Shown here in pieces: positions 22,538 through 25,998 of a stretch of DNA of 64,000 nt (position 1 is its first letter; every line of letters starts with the position of its first letter). The notes under the pieces were generated by a model, which searched no databases, was not told the origin of the DNA, and was given only the letters and a program-made list of their open reading frames with translations. This DNA is from an uncultured Tateyamaria sp. (GTDB lineage Bacteria > Pseudomonadota > Alphaproteobacteria > Rhodobacterales > Rhodobacteraceae): contig NZ_CANNDO010000006.1 of NCBI RefSeq assembly GCF_947503385.1, positions 1-64,000 on the forward strand. The letters are read 5' to 3'. A program made the translations under genes and the position numbers.

Positions 22538-23098
22538 TCAGTCGCCGCGAGGCAGGGCGGCGACGCCTGTTCGCGCCACTTCGACCAGACCCAATGGGCG
22601 CATGAGATCGGCAAAGGCGTCGATCTTTTCCGGTGCGCCTGTGATTTCGAAGATGAAACTTTCCAGAGTGCTGTCCACCACATTGGCCCGGAAGATATCC
22701 GCCAGCCGCAGCGCCTCGACACGCTTTTCGCCCTGTCCGGCCACCTTGAACATTGCCAGTTCCCGCTCGACGCTGGCACCTTCGACGGTGAGGTCGTGTA
22801 CCTCGTGGACGGGTACGATCCGGCCCAGCTGTGTCTTGATCTGTTCGATGACCTGCGGCGTGCCGGTGGTGACGATGGTAATGCGGCTGAGGTGTCCCTG
22901 ATGGTCCACCTCGGCCACGGTCAGGCTTTCGATGTTGTAGCCCCGACCTGAAAACAGGCCAATGACCCGCGCCAGCACGCCGGGTTCGTTTTCGACAAGG
23001 ACCGCCAGCGTGTGCTTTTCCACCACGTCGCTGAACGTGGGCCGCAGGTTATAGGCGGAATGGCTGGTGGAGCCTTTTTTGATTTTTAGAGCGGACAT
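22538..23098 (-). CDS. ilvN: Acetolactate synthase small (regulatory) subunit
   Basis: 186 residues. An N-terminal ACT domain (LAVLVENEPGVLARVIGLFSGRG, about 29-51) binds valine for feedback inhibition of the IlvI catalytic subunit. A second ACT-like half follows with VERELAMFKV and ADIFRANVVD. The length fits the longer IlvH/IlvN type. The frame is open to 23215, but ATG 23098 gives the normal N-terminus. It follows ilvI after 82 bases with competing hairpins between them. Confidence 0.95.
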   Translation of the reverse strand: MSALKIKKGSTSHSAYNLRPTFSDVVEKHTLAVLVENEPGVLARVIGLFSGRGYNIESLTVAEVDHQGHLSRITIVTTGTPQVIEQIKTQLGRIVPVHEVHDLTVEGASVERELAMFKVAGQGEKRVEALRLADIFRANVVDSTLESFIFEITGAPEKIDAFADLMRPLGLVEVARTGVAALPRGD

Positions 23099-23132
23099 TT
23101 TTTTCGGCTTTCTTATTTTGGGCAGAGGTGGC

Positions 23133-23170
23133 GGAAACCGACACGGTTTCCGGTCCATTTTCCGTGTCGG
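23133..23170 (-). promoter_or_regulatory. Two mutually exclusive hairpins between ilvI and ilvN
   Basis: GGAAACC (23133-23139) can pair with GGTTTCC (23145-23151). Alternatively CCGACACGG (23138-23146) can pair with CCGTGTCGG (23162-23170). The two share bases 23138-23146, so only one forms at a time. They lie in the ilvI-ilvN spacer and could set the ratio of the two subunits by processing or partial termination; function inferred. Confidence 0.4.
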
Positions 23171-23180
23171 AAAACGGCGG

Positions 23181-24932
23181 TCACACCAGAACCGACCCCT
23201 TCGCATCAATAACACCCTGCGTTTCGGCCTCGCCGAGCAGCATCTCGTTGTGAGCTTTGCCTGACGGGATCATGGGAAAGCAGTTTTCGTGCTTTTCCAC
23301 CAGACAGTCGAACAGGACAGGGCCGTCATGGTTGAGCATCTCCATGATTGCATCGTCGAGGTCGGCAGGGTCATCACACAGGATACCCTTGGCCCCGAAC
23401 GCCTCGGCCAGCTTTACGAAATCTGGCAGGCTTTCGGACCAGCTGTGCGAATAGCGTTCGCCATGCAGCAGCTCCTGCCACTGGCGCACCATACCCAGCC
23501 GTTCGTTGTTCAGAATGAACTGTTTCACAGGCAGGTTGAACTGCATCGCTGTCCCCAGCTCCTGCATGTTCATCAGCCATGACGCTTCGCCTGCCACGTT
23601 GATCACCAGCGCGTCCGGGTGACCCATCTGCACGCCGATGGATGCGGGAAAGCCGTAACCCATGGTGCCCAGACCCCCCGACGTCATCCAGCGGTTGGGG
23701 TCCTCGAACCCCAGATACTGCGCCGCCCACATCTGGTGCTGGCCCACTTCGGTGCAGATGTAACGGTCGTGATCCTTGGTCAGCGCCTCAAGCCGTTCGA
23801 GCGCATATTGCGGCTTGATCGTCTTGCCTTCCTGCTTGAACTTGAGGCAGTCCACCGCCTTCCACTCGTCAATCTTGGTCCACCACTGCGCGACCGCGCT
23901 TGCGTTGGTCTTGCGGCCGCGGGATTTCCAGACCTTCAGGATGTCTTCGAGCACGTGGCCGACGTCACCGACAATGGGGATGTCCGTCTTGATCACCTTG
24001 TTGATCGAGGAGGGGTCGATGTCGATATGGGCCTTTTTCGATTTTGGGCTGAACGCGTCGATGCGGCCCGTGATCCGGTCGTCAAACCGCGCGCCGATGT
24101 TGATCATCAGGTCACAGTCGTGCATCGCCATGTTCGCCTCATAAAGACCATGCATTCCCAGCATCCCAACCCAGTGCTTGCCACTGGCGGGGTAGGCACC
24201 AAGGCCCATCAGGGTCGAGGTGATGGGAAAGCCGGTCGCCTCAACCAGTTCGCGCAAAAGCTGGCTTGCGCCGGGGCCCGAGTTGATCACGCCGCCGCCG
24301 GTGTAAAAGATCGGGCGTTTGGCCGTTTCGATGGCGGCGACCAGTTCGGTGATCTCTTCCATGTCGCCCTTGACGCGGGGCTGGTAGTGCGAGGCGGACG
24401 GTTTCGGCCCGGAATAGGTGCCGGTGGCAAATTGCACGTCCTTGGGGATGTCCACGAGGACGGGGCCGGGGCGACCGCTTGTGGCCACGTGGAACGCTTC
24501 GTGCAGAGTGCCGGACAGGGCGTCGGTTTCCTTGACCAGCCAGTTGTGTTTGGTGCAGGGGCGCGTGATGCCGACGGTGTCGGCCTCCTGAAAGGCGTCC
24601 GAGCCGATCATAAACGTGGGCACCTGACCGGTGAGCACTATGATCGGGATGCTATCCATCAACGCGTCCGTCAGCCCGGTAACGGCATTTGTCGCTCCGG
24701 GGCCGGACGTCACAAGGCACACACCCGGCTTGCCTGTGGCACGCGCGTAGCCTTCGGCGGCGTGCACCGCACCTTGTTCGTGGCGCACAAGGATGTGCTT
24801 GATCGAGTTCTGTTGAAAGACCTCGTCGTAAATCGGTAGCACAGCACCTCCGGGATATCCGAATACCGTGTCCACACCCTGATCGATCAGGGATTGGACA
24901 ACCATTTTCGCTCCGGTCATTTGACGTGTCAT
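23181..24932 (-). CDS. ilvI: Acetolactate synthase large (catalytic) subunit
   Basis: 583 residues. A TPP enzyme making acetolactate and acetohydroxybutyrate for valine, leucine and isoleucine. FGYPGGAVLPIYDE holds the start of the PYR domain. RHEQGAVHAAEGYARATG supplies the catalytic Glu. CLVTSGPGATN is typical of the family. The TPP/Mg site lies in the C-terminal domain (GEASWLMNMQELGTA). The ATG at 24930-24932 was chosen; the frame is open a further 72 bases, but those run into the attenuator. Expression should be set by the leader-peptide attenuator just upstream. Confidence 0.97.
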   Translation of the reverse strand: MTRQMTGAKMVVQSLIDQGVDTVFGYPGGAVLPIYDEVFQQNSIKHILVRHEQGAVHAAEGYARATGKPGVCLVTSGPGATNAVTGLTDALMDSIPIIVLTGQVPTFMIGSDAFQEADTVGITRPCTKHNWLVKETDALSGTLHEAFHVATSGRPGPVLVDIPKDVQFATGTYSGPKPSASHYQPRVKGDMEEITELVAAIETAKRPIFYTGGGVINSGPGASQLLRELVEATGFPITSTLMGLGAYPASGKHWVGMLGMHGLYEANMAMHDCDLMINIGARFDDRITGRIDAFSPKSKKAHIDIDPSSINKVIKTDIPIVGDVGHVLEDILKVWKSRGRKTNASAVAQWWTKIDEWKAVDCLKFKQEGKTIKPQYALERLEALTKDHDRYICTEVGQHQMWAAQYLGFEDPNRWMTSGGLGTMGYGFPASIGVQMGHPDALVINVAGEASWLMNMQELGTAMQFNLPVKQFILNNERLGMVRQWQELLHGERYSHSWSESLPDFVKLAEAFGAKGILCDDPADLDDAIMEMLNHDGPVLFDCLVEKHENCFPMIPSGKAHNEMLLGEAETQGVIDAKGSVLV

Positions 24933-24972
24933 ATCCGCGTGCTCCGATTGCGGTTTCGTTTTTCTTTTGCGC

Positions 24973-25000
24973 AAAAAAAAGGCCCCCGGGTTTCGGGGGC
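24973..25000 (-). terminator. Attenuator terminator of the ilv leader
   Basis: On the minus strand, GCCCCCG (25000-24994) and CGGGGGC (24988-24982) form a seven-base-pair stem with a five-base loop. One C and an unbroken run of eight T (24980-24973) follow. It is a standard intrinsic terminator placed 40 bases before the ilvI start and 26 bases after the leader-peptide stop. Confidence 0.9.
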
Positions 25001-25078
25001 GCATGGGTGTCGGTTTGGATTTCCGTTACCGGCCCATGCGCTTTCGTACCAGGATGTCTACCAGAACGGTCATGGACC
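24999..25078 (-). promoter_or_regulatory. ilv attenuator: alternative leader RNA structures
   Basis: Segment 1 (25071-25078, over the leader start codon) can pair with segment 2 (25031-25038) over eight positions with one G-U. Segment 2 extended (25033-25041, GCGCATGGG in the RNA) can instead pair with segment 3 (24999-25007, CCCATGCGC) over nine perfect pairs. That overlaps the terminator's 5' arm by two bases. Stalling on the Val/Leu/Ile codons would favour 2:3 and read-through; free translation would favour 1:2 and termination. The pairings are read directly; the mechanism is the classical one for amino-acid operons. Confidence 0.82.
25026..25073 (-). CDS. ilvL: ilv operon leader peptide
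   Basis: A 15-residue open frame, MTVLVDILVRKRMGR, with six of residues 3-9 being Val, Leu or Ile. AAGAGG lies ten bases before the ATG. It ends 93 bases before the ilvI start, and the control codons sit over segment 1 and 2 of the attenuator. This is the expected design of a branched-chain amino-acid leader peptide. Its translation rate, not the peptide, is the signal. Confidence 0.88.
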   Translation of the reverse strand: MTVLVDILVRKRMGR

Positions 25079-25142
25079 GAAGACCTCTTTGCTTGCGTGA
25101 CGCGGACGTTATGCATGTCTGCGACCAGCGTCAACAGGCAAA

Positions 25143-25164
25143 CCCACGACAAATGTGTCGTGGG
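25143..25164 (-). terminator. Hairpin between the chemotaxis-like gene and the ilv leader
   Basis: CCCACGACA (25143-25151) pairs perfectly with TGTCGTGGG (25156-25164) across a four-base loop. On the minus strand only TTTG follows. It probably ends the upstream minus-strand gene; it may also lie close to the ilv promoter. Confidence 0.5.
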
Positions 25165-25236
25165 GCTGGAAAAAATCGGAATATTGTTGCTGAGACAGCG
25201 TCAGGTGCGACAGATCAGCAATTTTGAGGGCGGGAT

Positions 25237-25998
25237 TTAGCCTGCACCCTTGGTCATACCGTTGATATTGTCACGTGCCGAGGCGGCCAGATGCTGGATT
25301 TCCTCGGCGAGGGATTTGAATTCGACGGCAATCACGCCCAGACCGCGCCCCGCGTCGCCCACGCGCGCAGCCTCTACCGAGGCGTTCAGGGATACAAGGC
25401 GCACGTGTTTGCCGATCCGTTCCAGACGCCCCAAGATGTCGTCGATGGCCGCACCATTTTCGCGGGCTTGCTGCATGTCCTGATCGCGCTGCTGATCCAA
25501 TTGGGACCAAAGCCCATCGCAAATCTCGGTCACCGCCTGATAGAACTGGCCACGGCCAAACACGAAATGCGCCTTTAGCGCGGTGTCGAGTTCGGCGTCA
25601 CTGCACGACAGCGCGTCGCGCAGGGCTTTGGTCAGTTCAAGCATCCTGTGCAGGACGTCCAACTGCTTTGGCCAGAGTTTGACGGATTGCGTGATTCACG
25701 CGCAGATCTCCGGCGGCAATGCGCCGGTGGGGTCGCGCCCCTCAAGCAGGCTGTAGGCGCGCAGAATGTCCACATGCTGTTCTTCGAACTTGGCGCGCCA
25801 CATTGCGCGCGTCTCCTCATCTTCCGGTGTGATCGGATGCGGGCGCAGCAGATAGGTGCCAAAGAGCGCACAGCGCACCATCCGGGCACGCAGGGTCGCG
25901 ATCAGATCGATCGCCGCACGCCGATGCGCGAAATGGGACATTTCGGCGCTTTGATGCGCCTGCGGTTCGGGGGCGGTGTGCAACGCTGCGGGTGTCAT
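25237..25998 (-). pseudogene. Methyl-accepting chemotaxis-like soluble protein, split by an in-frame TGA
   Basis: One reading frame runs from ATG 25996-25998 (or GTG 26029-26031) to 25237, broken by a single TGA at 25696-25698. The upstream part (about 100 residues) is helical, with HFAHRRAAIDLIATLRARMV. The downstream part (about 150 residues) ends in a methyl-accepting signalling hairpin: LVSLNASVEAARVGDAGRGLGVIAVE is typical of the tip, then FKSLAEEIQHLA. Coding character continues through the stop (ITQSVKLWPKQLDVLHRM), and the only restart is a TTG with no clear ribosome-binding site. CGA-to-TGA is one base change. It may be a pseudogene, a two-gene arrangement, or a sequencing error. Confidence 0.65.

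Follow-up and report, generated by a model that had tools for sequence, protein, structure and literature searches.

A predicted ribosome-mediated attenuator before ilvI in a Tateyamaria genome and a mostly valine form of the same module before a Bcr/CflA-family transporter

The window analyzed here is a 64,000-nucleotide stretch of DNA from an uncultured Tateyamaria sp. of the Rhodobacteraceae (contig NZ_CANNDO010000006.1). Its minus strand carries ilvI (23181..24932, ATG at 24932), which encodes an acetolactate synthase large subunit of 583 residues, and an ilvN/ilvH small-subunit ORF (22538..23215), named from its sequence and position, with a true start that is probably near 23098. Matches to the window ilvI in genomes of the same family are 73-91% identical, and a same-family IlvI orthologue, L113, exceeds the NF006581 cut-off. 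Read along the minus strand, the two genes are preceded by a putative promoter, TTGACG (25134..25129) and TAACGT (25111..25106) with a 17-nt spacer (25106..25134 overall), a Shine-Dalgarno-like AAAGAGG (25084..25090) placed 10 nt 5' of an ATG, a leader ORF of 15 codons plus TAA (MTVLVDILVRKRMGR, 25026..25073), and a terminator with a run of eight T's. The leader contains the branched-chain codons Val3-Leu4-Val5 and Ile7-Leu8-Val9.

Four RNA segments can be recognized around this leader. Segment 1 (GGTCCATG, 25071..25078) can pair over eight positions, one of them G-U, with 25038..25031 (CATGGGCC). Segment 2 (GCGCATGGG, 25033..25041) forms nine perfect pairs with segment 3 (CCCATGCGC, 24999..25007). 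The terminator stem-loop, GCCCCCG-AAACC-CGGGGGC (24982..25000), has seven G-C pairs and a loop of 5, and its T8 run lies at 24973..24980; the terminator and segment 3 have positions 25000 and 24999 in common and nothing else. A further hairpin, CCG-GUAA-CGG (25023..25032), holds the leader UAA in its loop. The original prediction of a leader-peptide attenuator named the Val/Leu/Ile-rich 15-codon frame, the 1:2 pairing, the nine-pair 2:3 helix and the 3:4 terminator with its T-run, and every one of these can be read within 24973..25078.

The element was compared at ilvI genes of the same family. IlvI was found at an E value of 1e-200 or better in 79 of 80 genomes (one per genus), at 80 places, and upstream DNA could be read at 79 of these places, the exception (G021) lying at a contig edge. 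Of these leaders, 62 were aligned, chosen by having the segment 2 word CGCATGG in the right place, so that the invariance of those seven columns comes from row selection; L043 was dropped by hand because it has the word elsewhere. A covariance model built from the 62 aligned leaders, R1, matches 12 of the remaining 17 loci, ten of them at an E value of 1.1e-4 or better, and the element is present at 72-74 of the 79 loci read. In the genus of the window, R1 matches directly 5' of ilvI in every one of 20 genomes. An order-level draw consisted of genomes of the same family throughout; 38 of its 41 genomes have an R1 match, and in the 20 of these whose best match was examined as a locus, that match stands before ilvI. 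The promoter pattern TTGAC-N-(16-18)-[CT]A occurs in 47 of 60 family leaders (two of the 62 were left out as too short or containing N) and in none of 59 stretches taken 200 nt further upstream; a generic scan did not list the TTGACG-N17-TAACGT pair of the window. Many relatives have AAAGGAG or a similar sequence at the Shine-Dalgarno position. Judged by this comparison of sequences, the element is real, and its conservation at ilvI exceeds chance.

The leader peptide commonly takes the form MxxLVVIVGxxRMGR, followed directly by the stop. Counting back from the stop codon, 291 of the 310 codons at positions -12 to -8 specify Leu, Ile or Val (157 V, 80 L and 54 I; 62 leaders, sums taken from the six commonest residues per position). 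Synonymous codon choice is biased as well. GTA accounts for 90 of 163 Val codons in the leaders versus 69 of 1251 in 28 ilvI genes (odds 21 times), CTA for 25 of 82 Leu codons versus 18 of 1325 in the same 28 genes (odds 32 times), and GGA for 29 of 44 Gly codons versus 83 of 1605 in ilvI genes; these counts, like those of a conserved G given below, take related sequences as independent, which makes the codon p-values too small, and the codon contrast is large nonetheless. In one leader (L058, from G061), a TAG at codon -5 shortens the peptide while the RNA of segment 2 and of the hairpin is kept, which fits selection on the RNA and not on the C terminus of the peptide. A ribosome-mediated transcription attenuator is expected to have a short leader rich in the relevant codons and an intrinsic terminator between leader and gene; both are found here, with translation of the leader itself predicted. 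That the attenuator would serve all three branched-chain amino acids, as originally proposed, is well supported by the Leu/Ile/Val content of the leaders and by the GTA and CTA enrichment.

The pairings fared unequally in the same alignment. A 1:2 protector hairpin is usual in textbook attenuators and is not required if the ribosome masks segment 2. In the window the 1:2 pairing alone is worth -11.1 kcal/mol, and across the 62 leaders (window included) it is formed in 58.1% of cells versus 58.3% in shuffled columns. We therefore rejected 1:2 as a conserved part; the pairing that had been proposed is possible in the window and no better than shuffles among relatives. For the seven inner pairs of 2:3 the share of formed cells is 97.9%, in rows that were selected for CGCATGG, and this core is nearly invariant with little covariation, again partly by row selection. 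The terminator is paired in 99.5% of cells, and three of its seven pairs show changes on both sides. None of 500 shuffles of the family alignment reaches any of five measures, in a control that ignores relatedness.

The stop-codon hairpin on top of helix 2:3 covaries. Pair counts in the family alignment show both-side changes at its three pairs, and the consensus flanks occur in 70 of 113 leaders (62 from ilvI and 51 from the transporter loci described below). Among the 43 leaders that depart from the consensus, 31 have their stop codon spanned by a stem of 4 bp or more. When the 3' flanks were swapped among all sequences the mean was 15.1 and the maximum in 1000 trials 26; when they were swapped within the 43, the mean was 16.7 and the maximum 25.

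The original prediction further held that the three pairings are mutually exclusive, a point that also has to be revised. In the consensus fold, 2:3 and 3:4 lie end to end, both present, with zero nucleotides between them. Folding of the RNA does produce the terminator and the 2:3 helix; full mutual exclusion of the two is absent from the predicted folds, and at this level we rejected it both in the window and in the majority of relatives. The closing pair of the window terminator has a probability of 0.83 with segment 2 free versus 0.99 with segment 2 masked, and the corresponding medians for the 62 family leaders are 0.75 and 1.0. The second terminator pair falls to 0.5 or below in 17 of the 62 leaders with segment 2 free and in none of the 62 when it is masked. 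A fold combining the full 9-bp 2:3 helix with a 5-bp terminator lies just 1 kcal/mol above the fold with seven pairs in each, and the terminator alone goes from -15.9 to -9.6 kcal/mol when cut from seven pairs to five. Since the two hairpins form together in most predicted folds, exclusion between antiterminator and terminator can, in this modeling, rest only on two base pairs beside the U-tract, those of the 2-nt overlap.

One of these two pairs is conserved in a way that row selection does not explain. The first G of segment 2 (25041) is the wobble base of codon -5 and pairs with 24999, the second base of the terminator stem. The word that defined the rows does not include this base. It is G in 62 of 62 family leaders, in which codon -5 encodes Trp, Thr, Arg, Lys, Met, Ser, Ala, Leu or Gly and once is a stop codon; the third base of codon -5 is likewise G in 50 of the 51 transporter leaders, again with varied amino acids. 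That the G is kept across such varied residues points to selection on the overlap. The second overlap pair, 25040:25000, has its first base within the word that defined the rows, which makes the conservation of this pair less informative. By sequence, then, one overlap pair is independently evidenced as selected, and we infer that an overlap of two nucleotides may be sufficient for switching. An alternative is that the ribosome and the terminator alone regulate, with 2:3 acting as a pausing or stabilizing hairpin, which would make the trp-style model of alternative folds wrong in detail. Such an arrangement would agree with the coexistence of abutting 2:3 and terminator helices in the consensus and in most single folds, and with the separation of the two in the leaders of the Atu_C8 type described below, but the G at the wobble position of codon -5, by which 2:3 reaches into the base of the terminator, is kept throughout the family leaders and argues against it, and we consider this alternative unlikely.

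We note that (A/G)TGC or GCGC, a repeat of part of segment 3, often comes after the T-run (from 24972 downwards in the window, and in relatives). The motif (ATGC/GC) occurs after the T-run in 31 of 61 ilvI leaders and 31 of 52 transporter leaders versus 14 of 65 other terminators, a control set that is not clean; one of the 52, L232, is a weak match counted nowhere else.

The geometry of a translating ribosome fits this arrangement. A simple footprint model was used, in which the 3' edge of the ribosome lies about 16 nt downstream of where the P-site codon begins. With a footprint of this size and stalls counted by the A-site codon, a stall at any codon up to 7 leaves segment 2 free, one at codon 8 covers 3 nt of it, one at codon 9 covers 6 nt, and any position from codon 10 to the stop covers all nine. 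The conserved control codons -12 to -8 correspond to codons 4-8 in the window, at which segment 2 is free or nearly so; given the footprint size, a ribosome at the stall site would leave segment 2 free and one at the stop would cover it.

These features suggest the following mechanism. With an ample supply of Val, Leu and Ile, the ribosome would reach the stop codon, open the hairpin that contains it and mask segment 2; the terminator could then close down to the U-tract and transcription would end. When charged tRNA is scarce, the ribosome would stall 4-8 codons 5' of segment 2, with the rare GTA and CTA codons expected to make the leader sensitive to such a shortage. Segment 2, with the stop-codon hairpin, would then pair with segment 3 and take 25000 and 24999 from the closing pairs of the terminator, reducing the terminator hairpin from seven pairs to five, and RNA polymerase would enter ilvI more often. 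There is no conserved 1:2 protector, and the ribosome itself would take that role. We assign a probability of about 0.77 to the reading that the element is a ribosome-mediated transcription attenuator of ilvI-ilvN. On this reading, the leader and its hairpin-terminator switch probably turn on the genes for valine, leucine and isoleucine synthesis when those amino acids are scarce.

The trpL attenuators of E. coli and alphaproteobacteria consist of a leader ORF with control codons in which a ribosome at the stop codon covers segment 2. The window element has the first two of these features, and the third is predicted for it. It differs from the trp type in having no conserved 1:2 pairing, an overlap of only 2 nt between 2:3 and 3:4, and a stop codon in a hairpin of its own atop 2:3. 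Branched-chain attenuators were reportedly predicted for ilvIH in alphaproteobacteria by Vitreschak in 2004. Those predictions and the Caulobacter ilvBN attenuator (Tarleton 1994) were compared with the window element by description; the alphaproteobacterial ilvIH/ilvBN attenuators are alike in placing a branched-chain leader and an intrinsic terminator before acetolactate synthase genes. The Caulobacter ilvIH/ilvBN operon is stated to be controlled by transcription attenuation through a leader CDS (PMC4117421, citing Tarleton 1994), and an "ilvIH cis regulatory" element is listed for Sinorhizobium meliloti (PMC2573895, citing Vitreschak 2004). Attenuation of branched-chain operons is the subject of a review (PMC6123439), and an analogous cysS leader is reported from Rhodobacterales (PMC8632094). 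The ilvI element is thus a well-conserved case of a known kind, and what is particular to it is the 2-nt overlap, the stop-codon hairpin and the lack of a conserved 1:2 pairing.

Upstream DNA of ilvI was read at 69 places among 106 class genomes with IlvI, and at one additional locus, L143. R1 matched at none of the 69 loci outside the family, two of which (L122 and L168) have less than 150 nt of upstream DNA; the sole match, L113, belongs to a family member. Some of these loci have candidate leaders of other sequence, for example MNRTLVLIPWSLSEWS, MTTQLVLIRQPLSGRD and MSKILVPRAPFLGRT, each ending at a stop codon. Candidate ilvI leaders, several with LVLI or ILVP and then terminator-like stems, were seen at L124, L127, L137, L143 and L163 in other alphaproteobacterial families, and they differ in sequence from that of the window.

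A relative of the element is filed in Rfam as a Rhizobiales sRNA, Atu_C8 (RF02502). The window scores 29.1 bits against this family, below the gathering cut-off of 50, with E values of 0.0017 and 0.00046. No other Rfam family, riboswitch and T-box included, was found in 24500..25600, and Atu_C8 was the only one up to an E value of 1. The two are alike in the pair GCGCAUGGGC ... CACCCAUGCGC, in a V-V-G-x-R-M-G leader and in a stop codon placed in a hairpin. They differ in the terminator, which in Atu_C8 is separate and follows segment 3, while that of the window overlaps segment 3. A simple search of eight Atu_C8-type leaders put a gap between segment 3 and the terminator in all of them, 7-9 nt long in six leaders and 3 nt and 23 nt in the other two; with no overlap between segment 3 and terminator, a switch of two base pairs cannot hold there unchanged. 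Atu_C8 stands just before the same MFS transporter gene in 11 of 11 loci examined above the cut-off (Agrobacterium is not among them), of which five come from a scan of 15 named loci and six from genomes of another family. A scan of 190 class genomes gave one match above the cut-off, in one of those six genomes, and a weak match (32 bits) at L143 sits before ilvI.

The filing of Atu_C8 raises the question of whether the main product is the terminated leader RNA, acting in trans as an sRNA in the manner of Sinorhizobium rnTrpL, which is presented as a dual-function attenuator RNA (PMC10117765). The Rfam match of the window points this way, as does the conservation of the sequence of segments 2 and 3 beyond what pairing needs, which is partly row selection. 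However, the strong matches whose surroundings were checked all lie in cis, before ilvI or the transporter, and selection at the level of codons points to translation. We regard this possibility, which would be compatible with attenuation, as very improbable.

The transporter form of the module was examined with R1. A search of 385 class genomes, with strict filters that lose weak matches, gave matches in 29. Five of these are family members with their best match before ilvI, and 11 have a match directly before an MFS transporter gene. The remaining 13 appeared by eye to be plain chance terminators and were set aside. Two of the transporter proteins were scanned, and both score above the cut-off of TIGR00710, the Bcr/CflA family of efflux MFS proteins. 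A search with eleven aligned transporters returned 217 relatives, and among the best 80 of the 217, an R1 leader lies just 5' of the gene at 51 loci with an E value of 0.022 or better. A sensor of ribosome-targeting drugs, or an arrest peptide, stalling by peptide and drug and not by amino-acid supply, would suit this place before a gene of drug-efflux type, but we find it hard to credit, given that interchange of I, L and V and favored rare synonyms in the ilvI leaders are as expected of tRNA supply and that the C-terminal RMGR can follow from RNA pairing, with L058 stopping earlier and keeping the RNA.

As named in their records, hosts of the leader and transporter include Sneathiellales, Kiloniellaceae, Pelagibius, Minwuia, Devosia, Pelagibacterium, Paramesorhizobium, a Bradyrhizobium, Kordiimonadales, Rhodobacteraceae and two Paraburkholderia. 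The leaders are variable, and a common form is M...V-V-V-G-x-x-R-[M/L]-[D/V/G]-R before the stop. Among the branched-chain residues of positions -12 to -8 valine prevails (136 V, 26 I and 14 L), compared with the more even mixture of the ilvI leaders, and GTA is enriched, at 46 of 140 Val codons versus 71 of 1299 in sampled transporter genes. In the 38 best transporter leaders, 90.7% of cells are paired versus 90.0% after shuffling (47 of 500 shuffles reach the observed value), so that covariation of the whole structure beyond shuffles is not clear in this set, and the uppermost 2:3 pair is broken in 23 of the 38. A simple search found no terminator in three of the 51 leaders, and several low probabilities may reflect a wrong register.

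Ten full-length transporters, counting the G080 query, share at least 53% identity with that query, and six of the ten have the leader. In the genome of the window, the nearest transporter (45% identical) lacks a leader within 250 nt of upstream sequence, and R1 gives its second-best match an E value of 0.45. Two other genomes, G505 from the genus of the window and G482 from another genus of the family, have both the ilvI and the transporter forms. In G505, a second leader copy (L328) precedes a transporter whose frame ends after 129 residues. Neighbors that might name a substrate were sought, and besides the transporter no ORF cluster is common to more than ten of the 80 loci. At L286:3797-3913 (Mesorhizobium tianshanense), a TPP riboswitch stands directly before the same MFS transporter, with no leader found there; it is the only such case in 45 distinct loci at the Rfam gathering threshold. 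In two betaproteobacteria, Paraburkholderia phenazinium and P. fungorum (L264 and L268), leader and transporter occur together, which suggests that they were transferred horizontally as a unit.

As far as sampled, the R1-type module is by sequence widespread at the transporter and confined at ilvI to one family, and a move from the transporter to ilvI would be the simpler reading of this distribution. Among the top-ranked results of literature searches, no open-access paper was found, by title and opening abstract, on a leader attenuator before this transporter or on Atu_C8 as one, which is weak evidence. The apparently new finding is that the module, in a mostly valine version, stands immediately upstream of a Bcr/CflA-family MFS transporter.

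Taken together, the observations can be accommodated by one attenuator module reused in two roles. A mostly valine form would control a stand-alone Bcr/CflA-type MFS transporter across Alphaproteobacteria and would have traveled with that transporter into Paraburkholderia, with Atu_C8 as one of its branches. A form widened to Leu, Ile and Val would control ilvIH in the family of the window, some genomes carrying both. This would make the transporter a valine-linked carrier and not a general drug pump. Only the two lowest base pairs of the terminator would be contested by the module, and the stop codon in its hairpin would be the trigger. We hold this joint reading tentatively, placing its chance slightly below even.

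Attenuators of ilvI are already a known kind, and the shared module at the transporter is the part most worth following. If the joint reading holds, a family listed as an sRNA, Atu_C8, becomes a testable cis-regulator, and a little-understood group of transporters gains a predicted signal, valine. The compactness of an attenuator whose exclusion may depend on two base pairs would also make the minimal overlap needed for switching testable by point mutations.
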